This document shows, piece by piece, positions 10,186-28,594 of a DNA stretch of 64,000 nt. The notes under the pieces were generated by a model that saw only the letters and a list, made by a program, of their open reading frames with translations, had not been told where the DNA came from and did not search any database. The translations under genes and the position numbers were made by a program. The DNA is from Jiangella sp. DSM 45060 (lineage in GTDB: Bacteria; Actinomycetota; Actinomycetes; Jiangellales; Jiangellaceae). How positions within the stretch are numbered: position 1 is the stretch's first letter; each line of letters begins with the position of its first letter. The DNA is taken from the NCBI RefSeq assembly GCF_900105175.1, contig NZ_LT629771.1, forward strand, positions 1,488,001 through 1,552,000. Direction: 5' to 3'.

Positions 10186-10198
10186 GCGGGCGGCTCAG
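10182..10198. terminator. Small bidirectional stem-loop between convergent genes
   Basis: CTGAGC-GGGCG-GCTCAG forms a 6-bp stem spanning both stop codons of the convergent reductase-like and lacI genes. It is short and lacks a T-run, so terminator function is tentative. Confidence 0.3.
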
Positions 10199-12367: not shown

Positions 12368-13831
12368 TCAGGCCGCCGCGCCGAGCAGGGCCGCGAACCG
12401 CTCCCGCGCCGCCGCGACGGCGGGGTCGGCGCGCGGCTCGTACCGCACGGTCGGCGACGACGCGGCGCTCAGGGCGCGCACGGCCGCCAGCTCGCCGGCG
12501 GTGCGCCCGCCGCGCGCCTGGACCAGCAGGTTGCCCAGCGCGGTCGCCTCGGCCGGGCCCGCGACGACGGGCCGGCCGGCGGCGTCGGCGGTGAGCCGGC
12601 ACAGCAGCGTGTTGTTCGCGCCCCCGCCGACGAGGTGGACCACGTCGGCGGGCGAGCCGGACAGCCGGCCGGCCTGGTCGGCGTAGTGGGCGAAGGCCAG
12701 CGCGAGGCTGTCGACGACGCAGCGCACGATCTGTGCCCGGGTGACGGGGACCGGCTGGCCGGTGCGCCGGCAGAACCGCGCGACCTTCGCGGGCATGTCG
12801 CCCGGCCGGGTCAGCTCGGGCGCGTCCGGATCGACGAGGCTGACGTATCCCGGCTGTTCGGCCGCCGCGGCCAGCAGTTCGGTGAGGTCGGGCCGCTCGC
12901 CACCGTGCGACCAGGCGCGCAGGCACTCGGACAGGATCCACAGCGCGGTGACGTTCTTCTGGTAGCGCACGGCGCCGCCGGCGCCCAGCTCGTTGGTGAA
13001 CCCCGCGACGCGGCTGGCCTCGGTCCGGATCGGCCGGTCCACCTCGACGCCGACCAGCGCCCAGGTGCCGCACGAGACGTACGCGAAACCGGGGCCGGCC
13101 GCCGGGATCGCGGCGACGGCGGAGGCGGTGTCGTGGGCGGCGACCGCCGTCACCGGCACGGGGGCGTCGAGGCCGAGCTCGTCGACGACGCCGGCCCGCA
13201 GCTCGCCGACGACGTCGCCCGGGCCGAGCGGGTCGGGGAACAGCGCCCGCGGCAGGCCGTGCGCGGCGATGGCCTCGTCCGACCAGTGCCCGGCCGGGTC
13301 GAACAGCTGCGACGTGCTGGCCAGCGTCCGCTCGGCGGCGAGCCGCCCGGTCAGCAGGTGGGCCAGCAGGTCGGCGACGAAGCCGAGCCGGGCGGACGGG
13401 TCCAGCGTGCCGGCACGCTGCTCGGCGACCAGCTGCGTGAGCGTGTTGATCTCCTGGTTCGGGACCCCGGTGCGGCGGTACAGGGCGGCCTCGTCGAGCT
13501 CGGCGGCGAGGCCGCGGGTGCGGGCGTCGCGGTAGTGGTAGGGCAGCCCGAGCAGCCGCCCGCCGGGGCCGACCAGCCCGTAGTCGACGCCCCACGAGTC
13601 GACGCCGATGCCGCGCACCTCGCCGGCGTCGGCCACCGCCTGCCGGATGCCGTCGAGGACGCCGCGGTAGATCGCCGGGAGGTTCCAGTGCAGGCCGTCG
13701 GGCCAGGCCAGCGGCTCGTTCGCGAACCGGGCGACCGTGGCCGTGCGCACCGACCGCTCGCCGACGCGGCCCAGGATGACGCGCCCGCTGGTGGCGCCGA
13801 GGTCGATCGCCAGGTACGTGTCCGTGCTCAA
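12368..13831 (-). CDS. rhaB: Rhamnulokinase (FGGY family)
   Basis: Sugar kinase of 487 residues phosphorylating L-rhamnulose to L-rhamnulose 1-phosphate. It has the N-terminal phosphate-binding loop AIDLGATSGRVILGR, the RhaB segment GIGVDSWGVDYGL, PNQEINTLTQL (sugar contacts), TAVAAHDTASAV, SCGTWALVGVE and the C-terminal ATP motif LVGGGANNTLLCRLTAD. The start is TTG at 13831 with GAGG five bases upstream; no ATG/GTG fits better. It heads the rhaB-hydrolase-lacI unit and is divergent from the GH78 gene. Confidence 0.92.
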   Translation of the reverse strand: MSTDTYLAIDLGATSGRVILGRVGERSVRTATVARFANEPLAWPDGLHWNLPAIYRGVLDGIRQAVADAGEVRGIGVDSWGVDYGLVGPGGRLLGLPYHYRDARTRGLAAELDEAALYRRTGVPNQEINTLTQLVAEQRAGTLDPSARLGFVADLLAHLLTGRLAAERTLASTSQLFDPAGHWSDEAIAAHGLPRALFPDPLGPGDVVGELRAGVVDELGLDAPVPVTAVAAHDTASAVAAIPAAGPGFAYVSCGTWALVGVEVDRPIRTEASRVAGFTNELGAGGAVRYQKNVTALWILSECLRAWSHGGERPDLTELLAAAAEQPGYVSLVDPDAPELTRPGDMPAKVARFCRRTGQPVPVTRAQIVRCVVDSLALAFAHYADQAGRLSGSPADVVHLVGGGANNTLLCRLTADAAGRPVVAGPAEATALGNLLVQARGGRTAGELAAVRALSAASSPTVRYEPRADPAVAAARERFAALLGAAA

Positions 13832-14012: not shown

Positions 14013-16634
14013 GTGACCGTCGTGAACCGTCTCCGCGTCGAGTACCGCGACGCGCCGCCGGCCGTCGAGACCGAACGGCCGCGGCTGAGCTGGCAGCTGA
14101 GCAGCACCGGCCGCGGGGTGCGCCAGGCCGCCTACCGCGTCACCGTGTCGTCCGGGCCGGGGACCGACGGTGCGCCGCTCTGGGACTCGGGCCTGGTGGC
14201 CTCGGCCGAGACGGTCGGCATCGAGTACGCGGGCCCCGCGCTGGAGCCGCTGAGCAGCTACACGTGGAGCGTCGTCGTGACACTGGACAGCGGCGAGGAG
14301 GTGCGCTCGGACCCGGCGACGTTCGACACCGCCCCGGACGCCGGCGCCTGGGACGCCGCCCAGTGGATCACGCTGCCGCGGACGAAGTACTACCACGACG
14401 ACCACCGCCCGGCGCCGTACCTGCGGCGCACGCTCGACGTCGACCGGCCGGTGCGCCGCGCCCGCGTCTACGCGACCGCCGGCGGCGTGTTCCGGCTGTG
14501 GCTCAACGGGTCACCGGTCGGCGCCGCCACGCTGGCGCCGGGCTGGACCGACTACCGCTTCCGGGTGCCGTACCACGTGTACGACGTCACCGACGCGCTC
14601 GGCGAGACGAACGTGCTGGGCGCCGTGCTGTCCGACGGCTGGTACAGCGGCAACGTCGGGCCGTTCCACAAGCGCGAGTTCTGGGGCGAGGTGCCGGTGT
14701 TCCGCGCGCTGGTCGTGCTCGACCACGCCGACGGCTCCCGCACGGTCACCGGCACCGACGGGAGCTGGGAGGGCTCGTTCGGGCCGATCCAGGCGTCGGA
14801 CCTGCTGCAGGGCGAGTACTACGACGCGCGCCTCGACCTGGGCGACTGGTGCGGCCCGGCGGGGACGGCCGGCGACTGGCGGCCGGCAGCCGTCGAGAAG
14901 GGCCCGGCGGGCCGGCTGGTCGCGGCGTTGATCGACCCGGCCGGGCCGTACACCGAGCTCGCGCCGGTCGCCGTCACCGAGCCCGTGCCGGGGTCGTACG
15001 TCGTCGACCTGGGCCAGAATCTGGCCGGCTGGATCAGGCTGCGCGCCGGCGGGCCGGCCGGCACCATCGTCCGCGTCCGGCACGCCGAGGTGCTCAACCC
15101 CGACGGCACCCTCTACACCGACAACCTGCGTGGCGCCCGGGCGACGGACACCTACGTGCTGTCCGGCGGCGATGACGTGCTCGAGCCGTCCTTCACCTTC
15201 CACGGCTTCCGCTACGCGGAGGTCACCGGCCTCCCCGGCCCGCTCGTCGCCGACGCCGTCACGGGCGTCGCGCTGTCGTCGCTGACGGGGTTCACCGGCG
15301 GCATCGAGACCGGGAACGCACTGGTCGACCAGCTGCAGCACAACATCCAGTGGGGCATGCTGAGCAACTTCATCGAGGTGCCCACCGACTGCCCGCAGCG
15401 CGACGAGCGCCTGGGCTGGACCGGCGACGCGCAGATCTTCACCCCGACGGCGCTGTTCAACGCCGACCTCGCCGGCTTCATGACCAAGTGGATGGACGAC
15501 ATCGACGACACCCGCATGGAGAACGGCGCGCTGCCCGACATCGCGCCGTGCGTGGTGCTGGAGTGGGCCCGCGAGGGCTCGCCCGGCTACGCCGACGCCG
15601 GTGTCGTCGTGCCGTGGGCGACGTACCACGAGTACGCCGACCGCCGCCTCGTCGAACGGCACCTCGACGCCGGGCTGGCCTGGCTGGAGTACATCCGCTC
15701 GCGCAACCCGGGCCTGGTCTGGCGCGAGGGCCGCAACAACGACTACGGCGACTGGCTGGCCCCGGTCGAGACGCCCAAGGACCTCGTGGCGACGGCGTAC
15801 TTCGCCCGGTCCGCGGCGCTGGTCGCCGAGCAGGCGGAGGTGGCCGGACGCGCCGACGACGCCGTGGCGGCGCGGTCGCTGGCCGACGCGGTGGCAGCCG
15901 CCTTCCGCGAGGCGTTCGTCCAGCCCGACGGCACGATCCCGGCCGGCACCCAGACCGCGTACGTCCTGGCGCTGGCGTTCGGCCTGCTGCTGCCGGAGCA
16001 GCGGGACACCGCGGCGAAGGCGCTGGCCGAGGACGTGGAGCAGCGCGGCCACGTGACCACCGGCTTCCTCGCCGTCAGCCACCTGCTGCCCACTCTGACC
16101 GCCATCGGGCGCACCGACCTCGCCTACCGGCTGCTGCTCAACGAGGACTACCCGTCGTGGGGCCACCACATCAAGCACGGCGCCACGACGATCTGGGAGC
16201 GCTGGGACGGCTGGCGGCCGGAGACCGGCTTCCAGGACCCGTGGATGAACTCGTTCAACCACTTCGCGCTGGGCTCGGTCGGGGAGTGGGTCTACCGGCA
16301 CGTCGGCGGCATCGCGCCGGCCGCGCCCGGGTACGCCCGCGTGCGCGTCGCGCCGCTGCCGGGCGCCGGCATCGACCACGCCCACACCTGGCACGACACC
16401 GTGCACGGCCGGGTCGACGTGCGGTGGTCGGTGACGGGCCGCGAGGTCACGCTCGACGTCGAGGTGCCCGCGAACGTGACCGCCGAGGTCGTCGTCCCGG
16501 GCCTGGCGGTGACGGAGGGCGGCGTGCCCGTCGCGGACGCACCGGGCGTCACGTCCGTGGTCGAGGACGGCGCGAGCACCCGGCTCGTGACCGGTTCCGG
16601 CCGCTACGAGTTCCGCGCGGCGACGCCGCACTGA
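14013..16634 (+). CDS. Alpha-L-rhamnosidase (GH78)
   Basis: Enzyme of 873 residues without a signal peptide, so it probably acts on imported rhamnosides. The Fn3-like N-terminal domain starts VNRLRVEYRDAPPAVETERPRLSW, followed by the GH78 N-terminal beta domains and an (alpha/alpha)6 barrel. The motif PTDCPQRDERLGWTGDAQ carries the general-acid Glu (about residue 465), and TTIWERWDGW carries the second catalytic Glu (about 729); NSFNHFALGSVGEW is also typical. GTG 14013 has GAGGAGA upstream. It is divergent from rhaB and precedes the large rhamnose operon, separated by a strong stem-loop. Confidence 0.93.
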   Translation: MTVVNRLRVEYRDAPPAVETERPRLSWQLSSTGRGVRQAAYRVTVSSGPGTDGAPLWDSGLVASAETVGIEYAGPALEPLSSYTWSVVVTLDSGEEVRSDPATFDTAPDAGAWDAAQWITLPRTKYYHDDHRPAPYLRRTLDVDRPVRRARVYATAGGVFRLWLNGSPVGAATLAPGWTDYRFRVPYHVYDVTDALGETNVLGAVLSDGWYSGNVGPFHKREFWGEVPVFRALVVLDHADGSRTVTGTDGSWEGSFGPIQASDLLQGEYYDARLDLGDWCGPAGTAGDWRPAAVEKGPAGRLVAALIDPAGPYTELAPVAVTEPVPGSYVVDLGQNLAGWIRLRAGGPAGTIVRVRHAEVLNPDGTLYTDNLRGARATDTYVLSGGDDVLEPSFTFHGFRYAEVTGLPGPLVADAVTGVALSSLTGFTGGIETGNALVDQLQHNIQWGMLSNFIEVPTDCPQRDERLGWTGDAQIFTPTALFNADLAGFMTKWMDDIDDTRMENGALPDIAPCVVLEWAREGSPGYADAGVVVPWATYHEYADRRLVERHLDAGLAWLEYIRSRNPGLVWREGRNNDYGDWLAPVETPKDLVATAYFARSAALVAEQAEVAGRADDAVAARSLADAVAAAFREAFVQPDGTIPAGTQTAYVLALAFGLLLPEQRDTAAKALAEDVEQRGHVTTGFLAVSHLLPTLTAIGRTDLAYRLLLNEDYPSWGHHIKHGATTIWERWDGWRPETGFQDPWMNSFNHFALGSVGEWVYRHVGGIAPAAPGYARVRVAPLPGAGIDHAHTWHDTVHGRVDVRWSVTGREVTLDVEVPANVTAEVVVPGLAVTEGGVPVADAPGVTSVVEDGASTRLVTGSGRYEFRAATPH

Positions 16635-17088: not shown

Positions 17089-18264
17089 ATGACCGACGCC
17101 GAGCACATCGTCGATCGGCTGAGCCGCCAGCACATCGAGACCCAGTCCTGGGGCTACGTGAGCACCGGGACGCGGTTCAAGGTCTATGACACGCCGGGCA
17201 CCGCGCGCGACGTGCGCGAGAAGATCGACGATGCCGCTCTCGTCCACCGTCTCACCGGCGTCGCGCCGACCGTCGCCCTGCACATCCCCTGGGACCGGGT
17301 CGACGACTACGCCGAGCTGGCCCGCTACGCCCAGGACCAGGGAGTGCGGATCGGCTCGATCAGCCCGAACCTGTTCCAGGACGACGCCTACCGGCTCGGC
17401 TCGCTGACCAACGAGGACGCGACGGTGCGCAAGCAGGCCGTCGCCCACGTCCGCGAGTGCGCCGCCATCCTCCGCGAGGTGGGCTCGGACCGGCTGTCGA
17501 TGTGGGTGGCCGACGGCACCAACTACCCGGGGCAGGGCAACTTCCGGCGGCGCCGCCGGCACCTGGAGGACGGCCTGCGCGAGGCGTACGAGGCGCTGCC
17601 CGAGCAGGCCGAGATGATCCTCGAGTACAAGTTCTTCGAGCCGGCGTTCTACCACACCGACATCGCCGACTGGGGTCAGTCGCTCACCCTGTGCGAGACC
17701 CTCGGCGAGCGCGCGCGGGTGCTGGTCGACATCGGGCACCACGCGCTGGGCGTCAACATCGAGCACATCGTGGCCACGCTGCTGGACCGCGGCCGACTCG
17801 GCGGGTTCGACCTCAACAGCAAGAAGTACGGCGACGACGACCTGTTCGTCGGCGCGATCAACCCGCAGGAGACCTTCCTCATCGCGCTGGAGCTGGTCAG
17901 CGCCGAGGACGACGCGGACGAGGCGGTCGCCGCGGGGGCCCGGTCCATCCTCTACAAGATCGACCAGTGCGCGATGATCGAGGACAAGATCCCGGCGATG
18001 ATCCGCAGCGTCACGGCCATGCAGACGGCGTTCGCGAAGGCGCTGCTGGTCGACCGCGACGAGCTGGACCGGCGCCGGGCCGAGGGCGACGTCGTCGGCG
18101 CGAACGAGGTCGTCAACGACGCCTTCGAGACCGACGTCCGGCCGCTGCTGGCGCGGGTGCGCGAGCGCCTCGGCGTGCCGGCCGACCCGCTCGGCGCCTA
18201 CCGCGCGTCCGGCGAGCAGGAGCGGCGCAACGCCGAGCGCGTCGGGACACCGGCCGGATGGTGA
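17089..18264 (+). CDS. rhaI: L-rhamnose isomerase (RhaI type)
   Basis: TIM-barrel aldose isomerase of 391 residues converting L-rhamnose to L-rhamnulose. It resembles the Pseudomonas-type RhaI rather than E. coli RhaA. Metal- and substrate-binding segments include HIPWDRVDDY, SMWVADGTNYPGQGNF, MILEYKFFEPAFYHTD, LVDIGHHALGVNIE and FDLNSKKYGDDDLF. GAGGAGA lies upstream of ATG 17089. Its stop overlaps the start of the aldolase gene (ATGGTGA). It feeds rhaB and the aldolases of the same regulon. Confidence 0.93.
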   Translation: MTDAEHIVDRLSRQHIETQSWGYVSTGTRFKVYDTPGTARDVREKIDDAALVHRLTGVAPTVALHIPWDRVDDYAELARYAQDQGVRIGSISPNLFQDDAYRLGSLTNEDATVRKQAVAHVRECAAILREVGSDRLSMWVADGTNYPGQGNFRRRRRHLEDGLREAYEALPEQAEMILEYKFFEPAFYHTDIADWGQSLTLCETLGERARVLVDIGHHALGVNIEHIVATLLDRGRLGGFDLNSKKYGDDDLFVGAINPQETFLIALELVSAEDDADEAVAAGARSILYKIDQCAMIEDKIPAMIRSVTAMQTAFAKALLVDRDELDRRRAEGDVVGANEVVNDAFETDVRPLLARVRERLGVPADPLGAYRASGEQERRNAERVGTPAGW

Positions 18265-19019
18265 GCGACGCCGATCCGGTCGCGGAGCTGGCCGGCCTCT
18301 GCCGGGCGCTGGGCGACCCCGCCGCGGGCCTCGTGGTGGCGGGCGAGGGCAACGCCTCGGGCCCCGGGCCGGACGGCACCATCCACGTCACCGCGAGCGG
18401 GAGCCGGCTGGCCGAGGCCGACGAGCGGTCGCTGGTGCGGATCCGGCCGGACGCGCTGGTCGCGGCGCTGGACCGCGACGGGAGCGACGAGGAGTGGCTG
18501 ACGGCGCTGCTGGCCAGCCGCGTCGACGACACCGCGGCGCGGCCGACGGTCGAGGCCGGGCTGCACGCCGTCGTCGCCGCCGCGATGGGGCCGGTCTACG
18601 TGGCGCACACCCATCCGGTGCACGTGCTCGCGCTGCTGTGCGGCGAGCGCGGCGCCGACCTCGCGACCCAGCGGCTGTACCCCGACCACGTCGTCATGCT
18701 CGGCGAGGCGGCGTGCTGGCTCCCGTACGTCGATCCCGGGCAGGAGCTGGCCCGGGCGGCCGGCGTGGAGCTGCATCGGTTCCGGGCGAGCACCGGTCGC
18801 TGGCCGCGGCTGCTGTTCGCCGGCCACCACGGGGTCTTCGCCTTCGGCGCCACGCCGAGGCAGGCCCTCGACACGACGATCATGACCGAGAAGATCGCGC
18901 GGATCACCATCGCGGCCGCGTCGATCGGTGGCGTCACACCGCTGGCGCCGTCCGAGGTGGAGCGGATCGGGTCTCGCGAGGACGAGGCCTACCGCCGCCG
19001 TCTGCTGAGCACGTCCTGA
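18258..19019 (+). CDS. Class II aldolase/adducin family protein
   Basis: Zinc-dependent class II aldolase-like protein of 253 residues. VVAGEGNASG is the phosphate-binding loop, VAHTHPVHVLALLC gives the HxH zinc ligands, and LLFAGHHGVFAFGATPRQALD gives the third His region. L-rhamnulose-1-phosphate or L-fuculose-1-phosphate aldolase activity is plausible. A separate RhaD/RhaE fusion in the same operon also carries an aldolase domain, so this copy may act on a different phosphoketose or be an isoenzyme. The ATG overlaps the rhaI stop. Confidence 0.8.
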   Translation: MVSDADPVAELAGLCRALGDPAAGLVVAGEGNASGPGPDGTIHVTASGSRLAEADERSLVRIRPDALVAALDRDGSDEEWLTALLASRVDDTAARPTVEAGLHAVVAAAMGPVYVAHTHPVHVLALLCGERGADLATQRLYPDHVVMLGEAACWLPYVDPGQELARAAGVELHRFRASTGRWPRLLFAGHHGVFAFGATPRQALDTTIMTEKIARITIAAASIGGVTPLAPSEVERIGSREDEAYRRRLLSTS

Positions 19020-19057: not shown

Positions 19058-22000
19058 ATGGGCAGAGCGATGACAGCCGGCCGCGCGCTGGCGGCGGCCC
19101 TGGCCGCGGTGACGCTGGCGGTGGCCGGCGTTCCGGCGACGGCGAGCGGCGCCGCCCCGGCCGCCGCGCCGCGCGCCTGCGCGGAACCGGCCGACGGCAT
19201 CACCGAGGTGAGCGTCGGCGCCGACACCATCACCGTCACCGGGTCGGTGCCGGAACGGTGCCCGCAGTCGGTCGAGATCCACGCGGTGGCCCCGGCCGCC
19301 GACGCCACCGCCGCGGACGCGCCGGCCGCGGCCAGCGCGCTGGAGGTCGTCCGGCCGGCCCGCGACGGCAGCTTCAGCGCCACCGTCGAGCGCACGGCCG
19401 GCGGCGTGGACCTGCTGTACAGCGGCTTCACCGCCGTCGGCGTCCGCGGCGACGTCCGCACCGCGCTCGGCGGCGTCCACTACGCCGACGACTGGGCCTT
19501 CGACGCGCCGAACTCCGCGCCGCGCCCGGAGCCGACCACGCAGAAGGGCGTGGCGGTGACGATGACCAGCGACGCCGAGGTGGTCGGAGCGGGGCACGCG
19601 GCCGTCACCGTCGGCGTCAACTACCTGATGAAGGCCGGGCCGGGCGCGCCGGGCGAGACCGTCGAGTTCGAGTACGGCGGCGAGACCTACTACTTCGACA
19701 AGTCCTACATCGACTGGCTGGACCACACCATCAAGCCGCTGTCCGACAACGAGATGCTCGTCTACCTCGTGCTGGTGCTGGTCTACGACCAGGAGCCGAA
19801 CTCGTCGTTCCCGATCCTGGTGCACCCGGACGCGCCCACCGGCGCGCCCGCCGCGTTCATGACGTACGCGTTCAACACCGTCACGCCGGAGGGGATCGCG
19901 CACTACACCGCGGCGATGGAGTTCCTGGCCGCCCGGTACACCCGCGACGATGAGGCCTACGGCCGGGCGATGGACTACATCGTCGGCAACGAGATCGACT
20001 CCGCCGGCATCTGGCAGCAGATGGGCGAGAAGACGCTGCCGGAGTTCCTGGAGCACTACGAGCCGGCGCTGCGGATCGGGTACAACGCGGCCCGCAAGTA
20101 CCACGCCGACGCGCGCGTCTACACCTCGCTGGACCACTTCTGGACGACCAACGCGAACCCGTCCGACCCGCTGCGGTTCTACGACGGGCGCGACGTGCTC
20201 GACGGCCTGGCGGCGCTGACGAAGGACCGCGGCGACTTCCCGTGGGACCTCGCCTACCACCCCTACCCGGCGAACATGCTGGACCCGCGGGTCTGGGACG
20301 ACCCCGTCACCGACGACGCGGACACGCCGAAGATCACCTTCAAGAACATCGCCACGCTGCCCGCGTACCTCGACCGCCCGGAGCTGCACTACGACGGCGA
20401 GCCGCGGCGGGTCATCCTGTCCGAGCAGGGCTGCCAGAGCCCGACCAACGGCGCCGCCGACCAGGAGCTGCAGGCGGCCTGCTTCGCCTACGCGTACTAC
20501 AAGATCCTCGCCGCCGACGGCATCGACGCGTTCATCTGGGACCCGCAGGTGGACAACCGGCAGGCCGGCGGCCTGCGGATCGGCCTCTGGACGTGGGACG
20601 AGAACCGCACTGACTTCCCGGCGTCGCCCGGTGAGAAGAAGCAGATCTACGACGTCTTCGCGCACATCGACACGCCGGAGTCGCTGCAGCGGACCGAGTT
20701 CGCCAAGGACGTCATCGGCATCGACGACTGGACCGACGTCATCCCGGGCTTCGACCCGTCGATGATCGACCAGCGCCGCACCACCCAGCAGGTCGGTGCG
20801 AGCGGCCACGCCGGCCTCTCCGGTGCCGTCGCGGTGTCCGGCTTCGAGGACGGCGCCGGCGGCTGGCAGGCGTCGGACCACGTCGGCCGGGTCGAGGCGG
20901 TCGCCGACGACGCCGCGGCCGAGGGCGGTCACGTGCTGCGCGCCTTCTTCGACGACCCCGACGTCGTCCAGTCCAACGGGACGAACTCCAAGACCTGGCG
21001 CGGGGTCGACGTCCCGCTCGCCGCGCCGCTGGACGCGTCCGCGACGCCGCACCTGGCCCTGCAGGTCCGCATCCCGGAGCCGGAGCCGGGCGCGTTCTCG
21101 CCGGTCAACCGGTTCTCGGTACAGGTCCGCGCGTACGGCGCCGACGGCACGGTGGCGTCCGGCGTCGTCGCGGCCGAGGCGGACGGGACGTGGCAGCGGG
21201 TCCAGCTGGATCTGTCGTCGTGGCCCGGCCGCGACGAGATCACCCGGATCAAGGTCTGGGCCAAGGGCAGCAGCGGTGACGACTGGGCCGGCACGTTCGA
21301 CGTCGACGACGTCGTGCTCGCGGCCGACGCCGATGACGCCGGCGTGCGGCCCAACCTGGACCTGCGGGCCCGCGCCGCCGACCGCGGCGGTCCCGGCTCG
21401 GAGGTCACCGTCGACGTCGTCAACAACGGCACGGCGGCGCTGGCCGGCGACCTCGTCGTCGGCAGCTGCGACGGCATCACGACGGCCGAGCCGAGCCTGC
21501 CGGTCGACGGGCTGGCCGCTGCCGGCGGCGCGACGACCGTCACCGCCACGCTGGAGACGATCGCGCCGGCCGACCCGGACCATCCGCTGTTGTGCCTCAC
21601 GCTCGGCGAGCACCGCTACGCCGTGACGATCGAGGTGCCGCCCCCGCCGCCGACGCTGCTCTACGACTTCGAGGACGGCACCCAGGGGTGGACCGCCGGC
21701 CAGAACATCGTGTCCGTGGCGACGGCGTCGTCGTTCCCGAACGGCCCGCAGCGCCCGCACGGCGGCACGTACGCCCTCGACGCGGTCATGGCCGACGGCG
21801 ACGTCTCGCAGCCCAAGACGCTGTCCGTGCGGCCGGAGACGCCGCTCGACCTCGGCGCGGCCGACGAGGTCTACGCGTGGGTCGACGCCTACGGCGGCGT
21901 GCCCGGCGCGACCGGCTACGAGGCGACGCTGACGCTGCACAGCGGCGACGAGTCGATCTCGCAGGCGCTGCCCACGTTCGTGCCGGACTCCTGGAACCGC

Positions 22001-23299
22001 ATCGCCGTCGACGTGTCCGCCTGGCCGTACCGCGACGCCGTCACCGGCATCGACGTCTCGTACCGGGTGCTGGGCACCGACTTCGACTGGGTCGGCGGCC
22101 CGCGCCTGCAGGTGGACGACGTCGGGATCACCGAGAACGCGGCCTCGCGGCCGGCCTGGCGGGCCGCCTGGGGCGCGTCGATCGGCGGCCACTTCGGCGG
22201 CGACAGCCGCCCGGACGCCACGTACCGGCAGACGATGGAGCTGTCCACCGGTGGCAACGCCGTGCGGGTCCGCTTCGTCAACCCGTTCTCCGACCAGGAC
22301 CTCGTGTTCGACGCCGCCACGGTGGGCGTGCGCTCCGGCACCGGCGCGGACGTCGCCGGCGCGCCGCGGCCGCTGAGCGTCCTCGGGTCGAGCGAGATCC
22401 GGGTGCGGCCGGGCGAGACGGTCTACACCGACCCCGTGGCGCTACCGGTCGCCGCCGGCGACGACCTCGTCGTCAGCACCCACGCCACTCAGTCGCTGCC
22501 GCTGCTGTCGCACGACTGGGCGCTGAAGACCCAGTACGCGACGGCGGAGGGGGCCGGCGACCACACCGGCGACGCCGGCGGCGCGGCCTTCGCGCCGGTG
22601 AGCACCAGCACCTACTGGCTGGACGCGGTCGACGTGCTGGGCACGCAGGCGCGGGGAACGGTCGTGGCGCTCGGCGACTCCATCACCGACGGCGCCGGCG
22701 CCGACCTCGACGCGGACAACCGCTGGCCGGACGTGCTGGCCGACCGGCTGAACGCGCTGGCGCCGGACGACCCCCGGCGGCGCACGGTGGTCAACGCGGG
22801 GATCGGCGGCAACACGCTGAACTCCGTCGAGAACCCCCAGGTCGGCGTCAACGGCCTGGCCCGGCTGGACCGCGACGTGCTCACCCAGACCGGCGTGACC
22901 GACGTCGTGGTGTTCCATGGCACCAACGACATCTACGTCGGCGAGTCCGCGGCGGACGTCATCGCGTCGCTGCAGACCGCGGCCCAGCGCATCCACGACG
23001 CGGGCGCGCGGGCCGTCGTCGCCACGCTCATCCCGCGCGGCAACGGCGTGGGCTGGACCCCCGACCGGGAGGAGCGACGGCTCGCCGTGAACGAGTGGAT
23101 CCGTTCGAACACCGTGTTCGACGCGGTGATCGACTTCGACGTCGTCGTCGACGACCCCGCCGCCCCCGGCCACATCCGGGCGGACTACGACGCCGACGGC
23201 ACCCATCCCAACGCGGCCGGGTACGCGGCGATGGCCGCGGCCATCGACCTCGACCTCTTCGCCGCGCCGAGCGCGCAGCAGACAGGAGCCCTTCGATGA
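19058..23299 (+). CDS. Large secreted DUF5722 glycoside-hydrolase-like protein with C-terminal SGNH esterase
   Basis: Exported protein of 1413 residues. A signal peptide (residues 1-33) leads into an N-terminal domain and a DUF5722 TIM-barrel at about 150-560. There IVGNEIDS (Glu about 312) and ILSEQGCQS (Glu about 456) look like the acid/base and nucleophile of clan GH-A. Two CBM-like beta-sandwich units follow (FEDGAGGWQ near 590; FEDGTQGWTA near 870). A C-terminal SGNH hydrolase has nucleophile Ser in ALGDSITDG (about 1208), FHGTNDIYVG and catalytic DGTHPNAAGY (His about 1383). It probably trims and de-esterifies a rhamnose-rich polysaccharide outside the cell. The stop overlaps the binding-protein start. 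Confidence 0.8.
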   Translation: MGRAMTAGRALAAALAAVTLAVAGVPATASGAAPAAAPRACAEPADGITEVSVGADTITVTGSVPERCPQSVEIHAVAPAADATAADAPAAASALEVVRPARDGSFSATVERTAGGVDLLYSGFTAVGVRGDVRTALGGVHYADDWAFDAPNSAPRPEPTTQKGVAVTMTSDAEVVGAGHAAVTVGVNYLMKAGPGAPGETVEFEYGGETYYFDKSYIDWLDHTIKPLSDNEMLVYLVLVLVYDQEPNSSFPILVHPDAPTGAPAAFMTYAFNTVTPEGIAHYTAAMEFLAARYTRDDEAYGRAMDYIVGNEIDSAGIWQQMGEKTLPEFLEHYEPALRIGYNAARKYHADARVYTSLDHFWTTNANPSDPLRFYDGRDVLDGLAALTKDRGDFPWDLAYHPYPANMLDPRVWDDPVTDDADTPKITFKNIATLPAYLDRPELHYDGEPRRVILSEQGCQSPTNGAADQELQAACFAYAYYKILAADGIDAFIWDPQVDNRQAGGLRIGLWTWDENRTDFPASPGEKKQIYDVFAHIDTPESLQRTEFAKDVIGIDDWTDVIPGFDPSMIDQRRTTQQVGASGHAGLSGAVAVSGFEDGAGGWQASDHVGRVEAVADDAAAEGGHVLRAFFDDPDVVQSNGTNSKTWRGVDVPLAAPLDASATPHLALQVRIPEPEPGAFSPVNRFSVQVRAYGADGTVASGVVAAEADGTWQRVQLDLSSWPGRDEITRIKVWAKGSSGDDWAGTFDVDDVVLAADADDAGVRPNLDLRARAADRGGPGSEVTVDVVNNGTAALAGDLVVGSCDGITTAEPSLPVDGLAAAGGATTVTATLETIAPADPDHPLLCLTLGEHRYAVTIEVPPPPPTLLYDFEDGTQGWTAGQNIVSVATASSFPNGPQRPHGGTYALDAVMADGDVSQPKTLSVRPETPLDLGAADEVYAWVDAYGGVPGATGYEATLTLHSGDESISQALPTFVPDSWNRIAVDVSAWPYRDAVTGIDVSYRVLGTDFDWVGGPRLQVDDVGITENAASRPAWRAAWGASIGGHFGGDSRPDATYRQTMELSTGGNAVRVRFVNPFSDQDLVFDAATVGVRSGTGADVAGAPRPLSVLGSSEIRVRPGETVYTDPVALPVAAGDDLVVSTHATQSLPLLSHDWALKTQYATAEGAGDHTGDAGGAAFAPVSTSTYWLDAVDVLGTQARGTVVALGDSITDGAGADLDADNRWPDVLADRLNALAPDDPRRRTVVNAGIGGNTLNSVENPQVGVNGLARLDRDVLTQTGVTDVVVFHGTNDIYVGESAADVIASLQTAAQRIHDAGARAVVATLIPRGNGVGWTPDREERRLAVNEWIRSNTVFDAVIDFDVVVDDPAAPGHIRADYDADGTHPNAAGYAAMAAAIDLDLFAAPSAQQTGALR

Positions 23300-24738
23300 C
23301 ATCCCTGATGAGCGGGAGAACAGCGGTCCGAGCCGGCGTGCTCGTCGTCGCCGCGGCGCTGACGGCGAGCGCGTGCGGCGGCGACGACGGCGGCGGCGAG
23401 AGCGGCGGCCAGGTGACCATCGCGATCGCCGGGCCCAACCAGTGGACCACCGACCCGGACACCTTCGGCCCGGCCTGGGAGGACCTCGTCGCCCGGTTCG
23501 AGGAGGAGGAGCCCGGCATCAACGTCGAGACGAACGTGCTGCCGGCCGACTTCGGCGACACTCTCTCCACCCAGCTGGCCGCGGGCACGGCGCCGGAGCT
23601 GATCTTCCGCAGCGTCTCGCACACGGCCGACCAGGTCGTCGCGCTGGACGACTACCTGCAGCAGCCCAACCCGTACGTGGAGGGCAACGAGCGCTGGATC
23701 GACCTGTTCAACCAGGACTACTTCGGCCCCGACGCGGTCAGCGCGCGCAACGCGGCCGGCAACTACGAGTTCATCCCGTTCAACCTGGTGATCCTCGGGC
23801 TCTTCTACAACGCCGACGCGCTGGCCGACGCCGGGCTGGACGGTCCGCCGGAGACGTTCGGCGAGCTCATCTCCGCCTGCGGCGACCTCCGCGCCGCCGG
23901 GTACGACCCGTTCGCGATCACGTCCGGCTTCCTCAACCAGGGCTGGACCGTGCAGAACATCAGCTCGATGCTGATGGCGCACTACGCCGACGACTGGAAC
24001 AAGTACGGCCCCGACAACGAGCCCGGCACGTCGGCCACCGTCTCGATCAAGAGCATGGCCCGCGCGATCCTCACCGGCGAGCTCGACCCGACGACGATCC
24101 CGGAGGTCGGCGAGACGCTGCGGCTGACCAAGGAGTTCTACGACGAGTGCGCCACCGAGAACTGGTCCGGCATCACCACCGGCGGCGGCTTCGAGGACCT
24201 GCTGTCCGGCAAGGCCGCGATGGCGTACGCGTCGAACTTCTACGCCCCGCTGCTCGACGACGTCGACTTCGAGTGGGGCGCCATGCCGTTCCCGGACCTG
24301 ACGGAGCAGGACTCGCCGCTGAGCACCGGCGAGCCCGCGCGGCACGGCGCCAACACCGAGGGCACCAGCTACATGATCCCGTCGACCACGACCGGCGAGG
24401 AGCTGGAGGCGGCCGTCAAGTTCCTCCAGTTCATCACCAGCCCCGAGGGCGGCCAGCCGTGGCTGGACGGGTCCGGCGGCATCCCGTCGCTGGAGGGCGC
24501 CACCCCCGCTCCCGGGCTGGAGCCGCTGATGACCGGCGTCTGGGCCGAGCCGCTGCCGGTGCAGTCGCTGTCGTCGCTGGTGCCCAAGGCCAAGTTCTGG
24601 ACGCCGATCTACGACGGCTACCTGCTGGAGTCCACCTCGCTGGAGGACACCCTGGCCGGGCTGCGCGAGGACTGGATCCAGTGGGCGAACGAGCAGGTCG
24701 AGGACGGCGGCTGGACCGACGACTGGACGCAGGGCTGA
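23296..24738 (+). CDS. Sugar ABC transporter substrate-binding lipoprotein (CUT1)
   Basis: Extracellular binding protein of 480 residues. The lipobox LTASACGG places the lipidated Cys at about residue 28, followed by a Gly/Asp-rich linker and a type-1 solute-binding fold (VTIAIAGPNQWTTD, LSTQLAAGTAPELIFRS, FIPFNLVILGLFYN, FLQFITSPEGG). It overlaps the preceding gene by 4 bp and precedes two permease genes. Ligand is probably rhamnose-containing oligosaccharide, by operon context. Confidence 0.9.
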   Translation: MTSLMSGRTAVRAGVLVVAAALTASACGGDDGGGESGGQVTIAIAGPNQWTTDPDTFGPAWEDLVARFEEEEPGINVETNVLPADFGDTLSTQLAAGTAPELIFRSVSHTADQVVALDDYLQQPNPYVEGNERWIDLFNQDYFGPDAVSARNAAGNYEFIPFNLVILGLFYNADALADAGLDGPPETFGELISACGDLRAAGYDPFAITSGFLNQGWTVQNISSMLMAHYADDWNKYGPDNEPGTSATVSIKSMARAILTGELDPTTIPEVGETLRLTKEFYDECATENWSGITTGGGFEDLLSGKAAMAYASNFYAPLLDDVDFEWGAMPFPDLTEQDSPLSTGEPARHGANTEGTSYMIPSTTTGEELEAAVKFLQFITSPEGGQPWLDGSGGIPSLEGATPAPGLEPLMTGVWAEPLPVQSLSSLVPKAKFWTPIYDGYLLESTSLEDTLAGLREDWIQWANEQVEDGGWTDDWTQG

Positions 24739-24739
24739 C

Positions 24740-25663
24740 GTGAGGACCGTCCACGCGGCCCGGACGGAGCAGCGGCGCGGCGGCGTGCCCTGGTTCGCCT
24801 ACGTGGCGCTGGTGCCGCTGCTCGTCGTCCTGGCGCTGTTCCAGTACTACCCGGCGGTCAGCGGCATCGCGCGCTCGTTCTGGGACTGGAACCCCGGCCA
24901 GGTGTCGACGTTCGTGGGGCTGGACAACTACGCGACGATGCTCGGCGACGAGATCTGGTGGCGCTCGTTCCGCAACCTCGGCTACATCTTCGTGTTCGGC
25001 GTGGTGGCGTGGGTGATCCCGCTGATCGCGGCGGAACTGCTGATCACGCTGCGCGGCGAGCGGGAGCAGTTCGTGTTCCGCACGCTGCTCATCGTGCCGA
25101 TGGCGTTCCCCGGCGTGGTGACGGCCCTGGTGTGGTCGTTCATGTACCACCCGAACAACGGCGTGATCAACCGGGCGCTGACCGCGGTCGGGTTGGGCGG
25201 GTGGGCGCAGAACTGGGTGGGCGACCCGTCGTTCGCGCTGTGGTCGCTGCTGTTCGTGGGCTTCCCGTTCATCGCCGGGCTGCCGTTCCTGATCTTCTAC
25301 TCGACGCTGCGCAACGTCCCTCGCGAGATCTTCGAGGCCGCGGCGCTGGACGGGGTGGGGCGGGTCCGCCGGTTCTGGGCGGTCGACCTGCCGCTGATGG
25401 CCCGTCAGGTGCGGCTGCTGTTCTTCCTGGCGGTCATCGGGACGCTGCAGTACGGCTTCATGGCCTACATCGTCACCGCGGGCGGGCCGGACGACGCCAC
25501 GATGGTGCCGGTCCTGCGGATGATCAACGTCGCCTTCCAGGGCCAGGACTGGGGCTACGCGGCCACGCTGTCGACGACGTTGTTCCTGGTGACGCTGGTA
25601 CTGAGCGCGGTGGTCATGTTCGTGCGCCGCTCGGAGCCGTCCACGAACGTGAAGGGCCTGTGA
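24740..25663 (+). CDS. Sugar ABC transporter permease, MalF type
   Basis: Inner-membrane subunit of 307 residues with six predicted TM helices. The cytoplasmic EAA loop appears as EIFEAAALDGVGRVRRFWAVDLPLM, which contacts the ATPase. The GTG start comes one base after the binding-protein stop; its own stop overlaps the next permease (TGATG). No ATPase gene is present in the operon, so a shared MsiK-like ATPase encoded elsewhere is likely. Confidence 0.9.
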   Translation: MRTVHAARTEQRRGGVPWFAYVALVPLLVVLALFQYYPAVSGIARSFWDWNPGQVSTFVGLDNYATMLGDEIWWRSFRNLGYIFVFGVVAWVIPLIAAELLITLRGEREQFVFRTLLIVPMAFPGVVTALVWSFMYHPNNGVINRALTAVGLGGWAQNWVGDPSFALWSLLFVGFPFIAGLPFLIFYSTLRNVPREIFEAAALDGVGRVRRFWAVDLPLMARQVRLLFFLAVIGTLQYGFMAYIVTAGGPDDATMVPVLRMINVAFQGQDWGYAATLSTTLFLVTLVLSAVVMFVRRSEPSTNVKGL

Positions 25664-26544
25664 TGAGCACAGTCGTCGAGACCAGGACCGAGACCGTCAC
25701 GGCGCCGCCGGCGGGGCGGCGGCCCCGCCGGCGCGGCCGCCAGTGGGGGATCAAGACGGCGCTGAGCGTGCTGGTGGCGGTGAGCCTGTTCCCGTACCTG
25801 TTCATGCTGAGCACGTCGCTCAAGGACAACCTGCAGTTCGCCGAGAGCTACTGGGCGCCGGTGCTGCCGCTGCACTGGGAGAACTACGCCACCGCCTGGC
25901 GGCAGATCCAGCCGTACATGGTGGCGTCCATCGTGGTGGCCGCGGCGTCGATCGTCGCGATCGTGCTGCTGTCGCTGCTGGCCGGGTTCGTGCTGGCGCG
26001 GTACCGGTTCCCCGGCCGCGGCTTCTTCTTCGCCGCGATCGCGGTGCTGATGATGGTGCCGAGCATCTCCAGCCTGATCCCGCTGTTCGTGATGATGCGC
26101 GACTTCGACCTGCTCAACACCTACCCGGTGCTGATCATCCCGCACGTGGCCGGCGGGGTGGTGCTCGGGACGATCCTGATGAAGACCTTCATCGAGGGCA
26201 TTCCGCAGGAGCTGTTCGACGCCGCGCGGGTCGACGGCGCAGGTGCGCCCCGGCTGTTCCTCTCGATCGCGCTGCCGCTGTCGATGCCCGTCATCGGCAC
26301 CGTCGGGCTGATCACCATCAACGGGGTGTGGAACGACTTCTTCTGGCCGCTGCTCACCATCACCGAGAACGAGCTGCGGACGGTGTCGGTCGGGCTGATG
26401 TTCTTCCAGGGCCAGGCCGGCACCGACTACGGCCCGATGTTCGCCGGCTACCTGCTCGCCAGCCTCCCGCTGCTCCTGCTGTTCACGTTCTTGTCCAAGT
26501 ACTTCCTCGCCGGGGTCCAGGGTGGACTGCCCGGCTCGCACTGA
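25663..26544 (+). CDS. Sugar ABC transporter permease, MalG type
   Basis: Second membrane subunit, 293 residues. An N-terminal Arg-rich tail precedes six TM helices; the EAA loop is QELFDAARVDGAGAPRLFLSIALPLS, and the C-terminus KYFLAGVQGGLPGSH is typical of CUT1 MalG-like permeases. It pairs with the upstream MalF-type subunit. The rhaD/E gene follows 13 bp later. Confidence 0.9.
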   Translation: MSTVVETRTETVTAPPAGRRPRRRGRQWGIKTALSVLVAVSLFPYLFMLSTSLKDNLQFAESYWAPVLPLHWENYATAWRQIQPYMVASIVVAAASIVAIVLLSLLAGFVLARYRFPGRGFFFAAIAVLMMVPSISSLIPLFVMMRDFDLLNTYPVLIIPHVAGGVVLGTILMKTFIEGIPQELFDAARVDGAGAPRLFLSIALPLSMPVIGTVGLITINGVWNDFFWPLLTITENELRTVSVGLMFFQGQAGTDYGPMFAGYLLASLPLLLLFTFLSKYFLAGVQGGLPGSH

Positions 26545-26557
26545 CCGAGAGGCATCG

Positions 26558-28594
26558 ATGAGCAACGCTGTCGTGACGGAGTTGATCGAGCGCAGCAACC
26601 GGCTGGGTTCGGATCCGCGGAACACGAATTTTGCGGGTGGGAACACGTCGGCGAAGGGTGTCGGGGTGGATCCGGTGACCGGTGGTGCGGTGGAGTTGTT
26701 GTGGGTGAAGGGCTCCGGTGGTGATCTGGGCACGCTGACGGAGTCCGGGCTGGCCGTCCTGCGGCTGGACCGCATGCGCGCGCTCGTCGACGTCTACCCC
26801 GGGGTGGAGCGGGAGGACGAGCTGGTCGGCGCGTTCGATTTCTGCTTGCACGGCAAGGGCGGCGCGGCCCCGTCGATCGATACCGCGATGCATGGGCTGG
26901 TGGACGCGGCGCACGTGGATCATCTGCACCCCGATTCCGGGATCGCGTTGGCCACCGCGGCCGACGGGGAGGCGTTGACGAAGCAGTGTTTCGGCGATCG
27001 GGTGGTGTGGGTGCCGTGGCGGCGGCCCGGGTTCCAGCTCGGGCTGGATATCGCCGCGATCAAGGCCGCGCACCCGGACGCGGTGGGGTGTGTGCTGGGT
27101 GGGCACGGGATCACCGCGTGGGGCGCCACCAGCGAGGAGTGTGAGGCGAATTCGTTGTGGATGATCCGGACGGCGGAGTCGTTCCTGGTCGAGCGCGGCC
27201 GGGCCGACCCGTTCGGGCCGCTGGTCGACGGGTTCGCGGCGTTGCCCGAGGGTGAGCGGCGGGCCCGGGCGGCGGCGCTGGCGCCGGTGATCCGGGGGCT
27301 GGCGTCGACGGACAAGGCGCAGGTGGGGCACTTCACCGACACCGACGTGGTGCTGGACTTCCTGGCCCGGGACAAGCACCCCGCGCTGGCGGCGTTGGGC
27401 ACGTCGTGTCCGGACCATTTCCTGCGCACCAAGGTCCGCCCGCTGGTGCTCGACCTCCCGCCCACCGCACCCCTGGACGAGGTGGTGGAACGGTTGCGGG
27501 TGCTGCATGCGGCCTACCGCGACGAGTACGCCGCCTACTATCAGCGCCACGCCACCGCGGACAGTCCGGCGATGCGGGGTGCGGACCCGGCGATCGTGCT
27601 GATCCCCGGGGTGGGGATGTTCTCGTTCGGCAAGGACAAGCAGACCGCCCGGGTGGCCGGCGAGTTCTACGTCAACGCGATCAACGTGATGCGCGGCGCC
27701 GAAGCGGTCTCCACGTACCAGCCGATCGCGGAGTCGGAGAAGTTCCGGATCGAGTACTGGGCGCTGGAAGAGGCCAAACTCCAGCGCATGCCCAAGCCCA
27801 AGCCGCTGGCCACGCGGGTGGCGCTGGTCACCGGCGCGGGGTCCGGGATCGGGAAGGCCATCGCGCAGCGCCTGGCCGCCGAGGGCGCCTGCGTCGTCGT
27901 CGCCGACCTCAACGCCGACGCGGCCGCCGAGGTCGCCGCGGGGATCGGGACCAGCGACACCGCGGTGGCGGTGACGGTGGACGTCACCAGCGAGGAACAG
28001 ATCGCCGCCGCGTTCCGGCAGGCGGTGCTGGCGTTCGGCGGGGTCGACCTGGTCGTCAACAACGCCGGCCTGTCCATCTCCAAACCCCTGCTGGACACCA
28101 CCGCGGCGGAGTGGGACCTGCAGCACGACGTGATGGCCCGCGGCTCGTTCCTCGTCTCCCGCGAAGCCGCCCGCGTCATGACCGGGCAGGGCCTGGGCGG
28201 CGACATCGTCTACATCGCCAGTAAGAACGGCGTGTTCGCCGGGCCCAACAACATCGCCTACGGCGCCACCAAAGCCGACCAGGCCCACCAGGTCCGCCTG
28301 CTCGCCGCCGAACTCGGCGAGCACGGCATCCGCGTCAACGGCATCAACCCCGACGGCGTCGTCCAAGGCTCCGGCATCTTCGCCGCCGGCTGGGGCGCCC
28401 AACGCGCCGCCGTCTACGGCGTCGCCGAGGACCAACTCGGCGCCTTCTACGCCCAACGCACCCTGCTCAAGCGCGAGGTCCTCCCCGAACACGTCGCCAA
28501 CGCCGTCTACGCCCTCACCGCCGGCGACCTCTCCCACACCACCGGCCTGCACATCCCCGTCGACGCCGGCGTCGCCGCCGCCTTCCTCCGATGA
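26558..28594 (+). CDS. Bifunctional rhamnulose-1-phosphate aldolase / short-chain dehydrogenase (RhaD-RhaE)
   Basis: Fusion enzyme of 678 residues. The N-terminal class II aldolase at about 1-420 has NTNFAGGNTSAKG, DHLHPDSG (zinc) and LGGHGITAWG; the C-terminal SDR at about 425-678 has VTGAGSGIGKAIA, VNNAGLS and the YGATK catalytic pair. In the known route the aldolase cleaves rhamnulose 1-phosphate to dihydroxyacetone phosphate and lactaldehyde and the SDR oxidises lactaldehyde. The first half uses many G- or T-ending codons, whereas the last 400 bp are almost all C-ending, unlike one another. The stop overlaps the next gene by 4 bp. Confidence 0.92.
   Translation: MSNAVVTELIERSNRLGSDPRNTNFAGGNTSAKGVGVDPVTGGAVELLWVKGSGGDLGTLTESGLAVLRLDRMRALVDVYPGVEREDELVGAFDFCLHGKGGAAPSIDTAMHGLVDAAHVDHLHPDSGIALATAADGEALTKQCFGDRVVWVPWRRPGFQLGLDIAAIKAAHPDAVGCVLGGHGITAWGATSEECEANSLWMIRTAESFLVERGRADPFGPLVDGFAALPEGERRARAAALAPVIRGLASTDKAQVGHFTDTDVVLDFLARDKHPALAALGTSCPDHFLRTKVRPLVLDLPPTAPLDEVVERLRVLHAAYRDEYAAYYQRHATADSPAMRGADPAIVLIPGVGMFSFGKDKQTARVAGEFYVNAINVMRGAEAVSTYQPIAESEKFRIEYWALEEAKLQRMPKPKPLATRVALVTGAGSGIGKAIAQRLAAEGACVVVADLNADAAAEVAAGIGTSDTAVAVTVDVTSEEQIAAAFRQAVLAFGGVDLVVNNAGLSISKPLLDTTAAEWDLQHDVMARGSFLVSREAARVMTGQGLGGDIVYIASKNGVFAGPNNIAYGATKADQAHQVRLLAAELGEHGIRVNGINPDGVVQGSGIFAAGWGAQRAAVYGVAEDQLGAFYAQRTLLKREVLPEHVANAVYALTAGDLSHTTGLHIPVDAGVAAAFLR

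Follow-up and report, generated by a model that had tools for sequence, protein, structure and literature searches.

What would an apparently secreted protein of 1413 residues, with two different enzyme modules in one chain, be doing among genes for the catabolism of L-rhamnose? The question is raised by positions 19058-23299 of a 64,000-nucleotide stretch of DNA from Jiangella sp. DSM 45060 (contig NZ_LT629771.1, positions 1,488,001 to 1,552,000; the window in what follows), where an original prediction had proposed a DUF5722-SGNH fusion that cuts and deacetylates a rhamnose-rich polysaccharide. Our analysis makes it reasonably probable that the gene belongs to a locus dedicated to rhamnose glycans and encodes a secreted protein with two enzymes, in which an esterase and a glycoside hydrolase (GH) barrel of clan GH-A act in the steps proposed below.

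The open reading frame (ORF) translates to 1413 amino acids with no internal stops; its ATG start codon is preceded by AAGGAG and, by the coordinates, 38 bases separate it from the preceding gene. Translation and Pfam agree on the fusion, and Glu312, Glu456 and Ser1208 were found at the positions originally given for them. The protein is composed of the following parts, in which CBM stands for carbohydrate-binding module:

19058-23299, plus strand: DUF5722-CBM-CBM-SGNH exoprotein, 1413 amino acids
19058-19147, plus strand: signal-peptide-like N-terminus, residues 1-30, judged by eye
19157-19507, plus strand: N-terminal beta-sandwich, immunoglobulin-like (Ig-like), residues 34-150, from model strands 14-103 and Big_6 matches
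19523-20740, plus strand: DUF5722 (beta/alpha)8 barrel, residues 156-561, from Pfam, the AlphaFold2 model and structure comparison
19991-19993, plus strand: Glu312, next to Asn311 where strand 4 ends, putative acid/base, from invariance (19/19) and model
20423-20425, plus strand: Glu456, putative nucleophile, in strand 7, from invariance (19/19) and model
20537-20566, plus strand: residues 494-503, the loop that follows strand 8, remodelled in the clade with the SGNH fusion
20816-21334, plus strand: CBM-like beta-sandwich 1, residues 587-759
21365-21631, plus strand: Ig-like linker domain, residues 770-858 (about), from strands in the model and relatives
21638-22147, plus strand: CBM-like beta-sandwich 2, residues 861-1030, close to CBM59 of 1wky
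22175-22627, plus strand: beta domain of the esterase module, residues 1040-1190 (about), where the 9kr0 and 7tog alignments begin (residues 1050 and 1053)
22661-23245, plus strand: SGNH hydrolase, residues 1202-1396, from Pfam, PDB sequence matches and motifs
22679-22681, plus strand: Ser1208, catalytic serine of GDSI, by motif position
23195-23206, plus strand: Asp1380 and His1383, remainder of the catalytic triad, by motif positions

The N-terminal sandwich, for which a Big_6 match was obtained in 4 of 19 DUF5722 members (best E 0.0015, Pfam), the Ig-like linker and the beta domain of the esterase module are additions to the original prediction.

The DUF5722 domain (PF18989) covers residues 156-561 with 409 bits against a gathering cut-off of 30.5 (E 1.9e-122, profile positions 2-393 of 393). 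Pfam assigns this family no function, and a literature search gave no paper naming DUF5722 or PF18989. An AlphaFold2 model of residues 34-573, made with 19 sequences (model numbering plus 33 is protein numbering), has a mean predicted local distance difference test score (pLDDT) of 84.3 and a predicted template modelling score (pTM) of 0.88, and exhibits eight strands past model residue 120 (130-133, 147-153, 201-209, 273-276, 320-326, 363-368, 419-424 and 456-461) together with a beta-hairpin at model residues 168-181. Asn311-Glu312 (model 278-279) stands directly after strand 4 and Glu456 (model 423) inside strand 7, the mean pLDDT of the 10-residue blocks being 81 around Glu312 and 78 around Glu456; the GH-A-like barrel with its Glu pair at strands 4 and 7, as originally proposed, is thus borne out by the model. 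Both Glu residues and Asn311 are invariant in all 19 DUF5722 sequences, and likewise His401, Tyr403 and Pro404. In clan GH-A the two catalytic Glu stand where strands 4 and 7 end, and the first of them follows an Asn. Glu pair and fold of the DUF5722 barrel are predicted to represent this arrangement, as judged from the strands of the model and not from superposition of the residues on a solved enzyme.

Structure comparison of the barrel gave as first match GH39 chain 5jvk (Z 23.8, root-mean-square deviation 3.7, 310 residues aligned, 16% identity), yet the GH10 chain 8b73 (Z 22.5) and the GH1 chain 1vff (Z 22.4) are near, followed by other GH1, GH39, GH10, GH5 and GH53 chains. The ranking is that of a second aligner, not of Foldseek, and the best 50 matches listed are all from what we take to be GH-A families. 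The Foldseek list of 50 includes GH2 enzymes as well and, besides GH-A families, a single chain of GH13 type, the neopullulanase 1j0j at rank 46, and in a viral structure library the top matches were mostly GH5- and GH1-like proteins. When PDB sequences were searched with the DUF5722 profile, only a chance-level match to a short unrelated stretch was obtained (E 1.1), and the sole other glycosidase Pfam match in the 19 members was a weak one to GH53 in one member (E 0.002). Membership in GH39 by sequence was rejected, with no GH39 Pfam match in the 19 members up to E 5 (HMMER filters on) and no PDB match to the DUF5722 profile. Since the structure matches are to GH-A enzymes and a link by sequence is absent, the most fitting description of DUF5722 is that of a family not yet classified, whose predicted fold is that of GH-A.

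Enzymes of clan GH-A are retaining and cut mainly beta-D or alpha-L-furanosidic bonds, so that cleavage of an alpha-L-rhamnosidic bond by the barrel would be unusual. A barrel of this kind, a rhamnanase or unusual rhamnosidase with a rhamnan as its polymer and GH78 as the sole further glycosidase needed, would be in line with GH78 being the only other glycosidase found among the operon genes searched and with the recurrence of rhamnose genes beside DUF5722, but it would depart from the bonds on which clan GH-A families act (beta-D, alpha-L-furanosidic and similar), and alpha-rhamnosidase families are not known within the clan; we consider it unlikely. The GH-A chemistry favours instead a beta-type bond beside rhamnose as the most likely target. 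As to the mode of action, 5jvk is endo-acting and has N- and C-terminal sandwiches, according to its description (PMC6933502), and by this analogy an endo mode is favoured for the DUF5722 barrel as well.

The two CBM-like sandwich units of the original prediction are present and paralogous (27% identity over 171 columns, E 3e-9). They were modelled over residues 575-1040 with 16 sequences (pLDDT 87.1, pTM 0.66), and in the model the Ig-like linker separates one CBM-like sandwich from the other. Sandwich 1 matches several CBM (CBM27) and agarase (exo-agarase) chains with Z about 12-13, and sandwich 2 matches the CBM of the JAMB-602 mannanase (1wky) with Z 19.7, a deviation of 1.7 Å over 141 aligned residues and 24% identity. 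The latter module is named CBM59 in PMC8952944.

The SGNH hydrolase is complete, as had been proposed (Lipase_GDSL_2 at residues 1204-1391, 93 bits, E 3.8e-26, Pfam), with triad and oxyanion residues S1208, G1250, N1290, D1380 and H1383 at their motif positions, the roles being assigned by comparison with PMC9105624. Matches to two-domain SGNH enzymes span residues 1050-1402; the best in the PDB is the SGNH hydrolase 9kr0/9kqz (E 7e-44, residues 1050-1399), on which the literature search found no paper (9kr0), while the match to 7tog has E 2.6e-42 over residues 1053-1401. For the 7tog group, PMC9105624 describes release of acetate from xylan with 2-O-methylglucuronate and 3-O-acetyl groups, together with a GNSI motif and a binding site that contains Arg193. 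In the phmmer alignment to 7tog, GDSI replaces GNSI, Ala1213 corresponds to Arg193 and Leu1156 to Arg139, and Arg25 and Asn26 fall outside the alignment. The module thus has fold and triad in common with the FjoAcXE-type acetyl xylan esterases, but judged by its sequence the specificity of FjoAcXE is not supported for it; by analogy its substrate would be an O-acyl group, probably acetyl. These results bear also on whether the whole protein might be a degrader of hemicellulose (xylan, mannan or glucan), with a rhamnose neighbourhood that says little on the substrate. The resemblance of sandwich 2 to a mannanase CBM59, and the fact that the identifiable characterised SGNH relatives are acetyl xylan esterases, point in this direction, but loss of the methylglucuronate-xylose contact (Arg193 to Ala1213), the change from GNSI to GDSI and the recurrence of the rhamnose linkage in several genera make it quite unlikely. 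A standalone SGNH relative in the same genome lies, by eye, beside dnaK/dnaJ-like genes and gives no substrate hint.

The rhamnose operon in which the gene had been placed is present, and the genes around it are:

10195-11196, minus strand: LacI-family regulator
11190-12365, minus strand: dienelactone-hydrolase/AXE1-like esterase, no signal peptide by eye
12368-13831, minus strand: rhamnulokinase-like (RhaB), TIGR02627 349 bits, below the cut-off of 528
14013-16634, plus strand: GH78 alpha-L-rhamnosidase, PF17389 361 bits, no signal peptide by eye
17089-18264, plus strand: L-rhamnose isomerase (RhaI), the genome's second copy, TIGR02635 550 bits, over cut-off
18258-19019, plus strand: class II aldolase, no specific function given (Pfam and curated profiles)
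23302-24738, plus strand: substrate-binding protein of a sugar ATP-binding cassette (ABC) importer (Pfam)
24740-25663, plus strand: ABC permease 1 (Pfam)
25660-26544, plus strand: ABC permease 2, so called from its position and from relatives that adjoin DUF5722 genes elsewhere
26558-28594, plus strand: bifunctional rhamnulose-1-phosphate aldolase/SDR (RhaD-SDR), NF006188 1361 bits, over cut-off
28591-29784, plus strand: L-rhamnonate dehydratase, NF011968 411 bits, over the cut-off of 393

RhaI and the class II aldolase precede the 1413-residue gene, the ABC importer, RhaD-SDR and L-rhamnonate dehydratase follow it, and GH78 and the rhamnulokinase-like gene lie upstream. Isomerase, kinase and aldolase, which together define an L-rhamnose utilisation operon, are all present, the kinase being best matched by rhamnulokinase yet under its cut-off. 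The class II aldolase adjoins RhaI although the operon also encodes RhaD-SDR. Over positions 10000-31000, Rfam gave no match at gathering thresholds. A CDF-like transporter (by eye) with a long N-terminal His-Gly repeat, at 31074-32168 on the minus strand, lies at the edge of the region that varies within Jiangella.

Does the link to rhamnose hold outside the window? Neighbourhoods were counted at 20 DUF5722 loci (the window, L018 and L021-L038), leaving aside L009-L013, a fragment or weak matches, as well as L001-L008, L014-L017, L019 and L020, each of which duplicates the place or the genome of a counted locus. A rhamnose marker was found within 10 kb in 10 of the 20, or in 11 if one weak match is included (L026). 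The whole cluster is present at the window, L018 and L021, and at L022 up to the contig end. Rhamnonate dehydratase over cut-off is found at L023, L024, L028 and L033 (the last also with GH78), a RhaS of 364 bits, over cut-off, together with GH78 at L034, and two GH78-like genes (one Pfam-confirmed) together with GH106 at L035; GH106 and RhaS were sought among selected neighbour genes of the loci. The weak match at L026 is to a 6-hairpin GH and barely exceeds the GH78 cut-off (27.3 / 28.5 bits vs 24.5); the locus was counted as without marker. Just beyond the 10 kb limit, 10.6 kb from this Kribbella soli DUF5722 gene, is a stronger GH78 whose reading falls into two pieces in different frames (G485:C3:1794707-1795709); it may be broken or mis-sequenced. 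Given this choice of neighbour genes, and because L030 (6.8 kb), L022, L023 and L038 end at contig ends, absences weigh less than presences, and L036-L038 were read as ORF lists with comparison to the genes of the window.

In whole-genome searches of 14 genomes (that of L035 not among them), GH78 within 10 kb of DUF5722 was found in 6 genomes, or 7 with the weak above-cut-off match in Kribbella soli (G485), where 0.25 would be expected for a random gene; for rhamnonate dehydratase over its cut-off the number is 7 genomes and the expectation 0.03. These chance figures are corrected neither for shared ancestry nor for the second DUF5722 gene that two of the genomes have, and the GH78 counts behind them include below-cut-off matches. 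Actinopolymorpha and both Microlunatus genomes have their above-cut-off rhamnonate dehydratases away from DUF5722. Relatives of the ABC genes of the window flank DUF5722 also in Actinopolymorpha, Kribbella, Microlunatus parietis, Pseudactinotalea and Microbacterium murale. In Microlunatus parietis a sulfatase gene stands between ABC importer and DUF5722 (L029:7997-9538), and the substrate there may be sulfated. At three loci with rhamnonate dehydratase, DUF5722 is followed by an amidohydrolase that weakly resembles L-fuconolactonase (L033:12615-13481, L024:12925-13794 and L023:3406-4293, the last by eye), a sign that rhamnose may be degraded there by a non-phosphorylating route.

Within Jiangella, the cluster looks like a self-contained accessory utilisation locus and not the core rhamnose operon of the genus, because a second RhaI tracks the fusion and because two genomes that lack DUF5722 showed no close relatives of the cluster in the stretch compared. 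Each of the 12 Jiangella genomes has a main RhaI elsewhere (603-625 bits), on which ground a housekeeping rhamnose operon of the genus was rejected as the identity of the locus. The second above-cut-off RhaI (549-551 bits) occurs only in G000, G004, G006 and G010, where it precedes the DUF5722 match by about 1.3 kb; the same four of the 12 genomes, and no others, carry the fusion (chance of coincidence 0.002, kinship ignored). In about 11-12 kb beyond the CDF transporter, G007, which has no DUF5722 gene, showed no relative of the cluster, and G008, likewise without the gene, no close relative, its LacI regulator and two permeases being at 30-35% identity.

In a sample of 99 related genomes DUF5722 was found in 7, and in a phylum-wide sample of 396 it was found in 5, only 3 of these 5 being above cut-off; both samples include the genome of the window itself. 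Two conserved patterns, VILSEQGC and AC[FY]A[YL]AYY, guided a contig scan, which is hence biased towards close relatives; it yielded 18 loci, from Jiangella, an Actinomycetes metagenome-assembled genome, Actinopolymorpha, Kribbella, Glaciibacter, Microlunatus, Microbacterium, Pseudactinotalea and Lachnospiraceae; the nearest relatives among named loci are in Jiangella muralis (97%) and J. asiatica (92%). Plasmid records matched the protein in 70 of 72,556 cases, none covering more than 80% of the query, and all of the 20 matches listed cover the esterase part alone. The Lachnospiraceae genes (L036-L038) lie, by eye, beside housekeeping genes or, at L038, glycosyltransferase-like genes, and the family may have other roles there. 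J. rhizosphaerae carries beside its full gene a shortened DUF5722 copy of 367 amino acids (L024:4882-5985, minus strand) with the first 147 profile positions and a sandwich-2-like piece, which suggests either a deletion remnant or a small derived protein.

Among 16 actinobacterial relatives (L018 and L021-L035), sandwich 1 is found in all, sandwich 2 in 15 (not in L029) and the Ig-like linker in 11 at E 1e-3, while the esterase module is found in three, L018, L021 and L022. Together with the window these form one clade with support 100/100 and a stem of 1.06; its position among the others is not fixed by the tree, for which the program gave a warning that two long branches join, that of the fused clade and that of the Lachnospiraceae rows. 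At 15 positions the three fused rows (window, L021 and L022) differ from a residue invariant in the 13 other actinobacterial rows, and 6 of these fall in the ten residues after strand 8, where LHRHVDHxxE is changed to WDPQVDNxxA. Since this loop lines the active-site face in GH-A barrels, a change of substrate in the fused clade is plausible; the loop was modelled poorly (block pLDDT 63) and its shape is not interpreted here. The long stem and the rebuilt loop could also mean that the barrel in the fused clade is no longer a hydrolase but binds or transglycosylates, the esterase alone being at work. This is highly improbable in our view, as both Glu, Asn311, His401, Tyr403 and Pro404 are kept.

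From the domain identities, predicted fold, placement of catalytic residues and rhamnose-gene linkage, all computed, we infer activity, endo mode, bond, ester type, order of steps and GH78 location for the two-enzyme protein as follows. The esterase module would remove O-acyl groups, probably acetyl, outside the cell, and the DUF5722 barrel, as a retaining GH-A glycosidase with Glu312 as acid/base and Glu456 as nucleophile, would then cut the exposed chain, most likely internally, while the two CBM-like domains hold the polymer. The adjacent ABC importer would take up the oligosaccharides, and GH78, placed in the cytosol because no signal peptide was seen by eye, would free L-rhamnose for degradation by RhaI, RhaB and RhaD-SDR. 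The polymer is probably an ester-decorated, rhamnose-containing one. A diglycosidase on rhamnosylated plant small molecules (flavonoid or saponin glycosides), with an esterase to remove acyl groups, would agree with GH78 and rhamnose catabolism, and rutinosidases exist in clan GH-A; secretion and two CBM-like domains suit a polymer better, however, and we hold such an enzyme to be very unlikely.

Several observations speak against a two-enzyme protein for rhamnose glycans. Foldseek (PDB) gave low TM-scores for the barrel, 0.41 and 0.45 for 5jvk. Within the DNA covered, a clear rhamnose marker is missing at 10 of the 20 loci (L025-L027, L029-L032 and L036-L038), and the rhamnose context needs 4 changes on the tree and is thus no constant feature of the family. 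The fused clade has a rebuilt strand-8 loop, so that what is learnt from relatives may not apply to it, and literature searches on the family and the wider topic gave no activity data. Finally, the operon genes searched hold no glycosidase other than GH78, which leaves the fate of the remaining sugars unexplained; this absence points somewhat to a rhamnose-rich oligomer, in tension with a beta-type bond.

Taken further, and as a tentative proposal only, DUF5722 would constitute a new family of glycoside hydrolases within clan GH-A, one that actinobacteria often employ on rhamnose-containing polymers and in which one Jiangella lineage rebuilt the strand-8 loop and gained a C-terminal esterase, giving one secreted enzyme that deacylates and cuts an ester-decorated rhamnose polysaccharide by an undescribed route. 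If true, this would add a hydrolase family for rhamnose-containing polymers (gums, exopolysaccharides, algal or plant glycans) and a natural one-chain esterase-hydrolase. In any case DUF5722 now has a predicted fold and catalytic pair, an expected chemistry and a metabolic context. The original prediction spoke of a new dual enzyme; the two-enzyme exoprotein architecture stands, whereas the fusion type is not unique, as an esterase of the same class is fused to a GH31-like barrel in the same genome (L052:7983-12191, minus strand; G000:C1 about 4848982-4853190), in a protein of 1402 amino acids that is built of GH31-type, Golvesin_C-like and SGNH modules and encoded next to GH31 and GH2 genes. 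Esterase-hydrolase fusions are already known as a kind from Fll1, which according to PMC12247016 has GH43_10, CBM91 and a 7tog-type esterase in one chain. New here are the uncharacterised family with predicted GH-A fold, its rhamnose linkage and its pairing with an esterase.

Compared with known systems, the DUF5722 protein shares with the GH39 endoglycosidases (GH39wh2 5jvk; PslG) a clan GH-A barrel with accessory sandwiches, but differs in its low identity to 5jvk and in having no sequence-level match to GH39. Sandwich 2 has the fold of CBM59 of the Bacillus JAMB-602 mannanase, although the identity is just 24%. The FjoAcXE-type acetyl xylan esterases (7tog, 7toj) have, like the esterase module, an N-terminal CBM-like beta domain, an SGNH domain and the same Ser-Asp-His triad, whereas their GNSI motif and the Arg193 of their methylglucuronate-xylose site are replaced here by GDSI and Ala1213, and the module is fused behind a GH barrel. 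The GH31-like fusion of the same genome carries a C-terminal esterase of the same class at 38% identity, but with a GH31-type module and in another cluster. Fll1, a multimodular esterase-hydrolase among carbohydrate-active enzymes, likewise combines glycoside hydrolase, CBM and 7tog-type esterase in a single chain; it is xylan-directed, however, and its hydrolase belongs to GH43, which lies outside clan GH-A.

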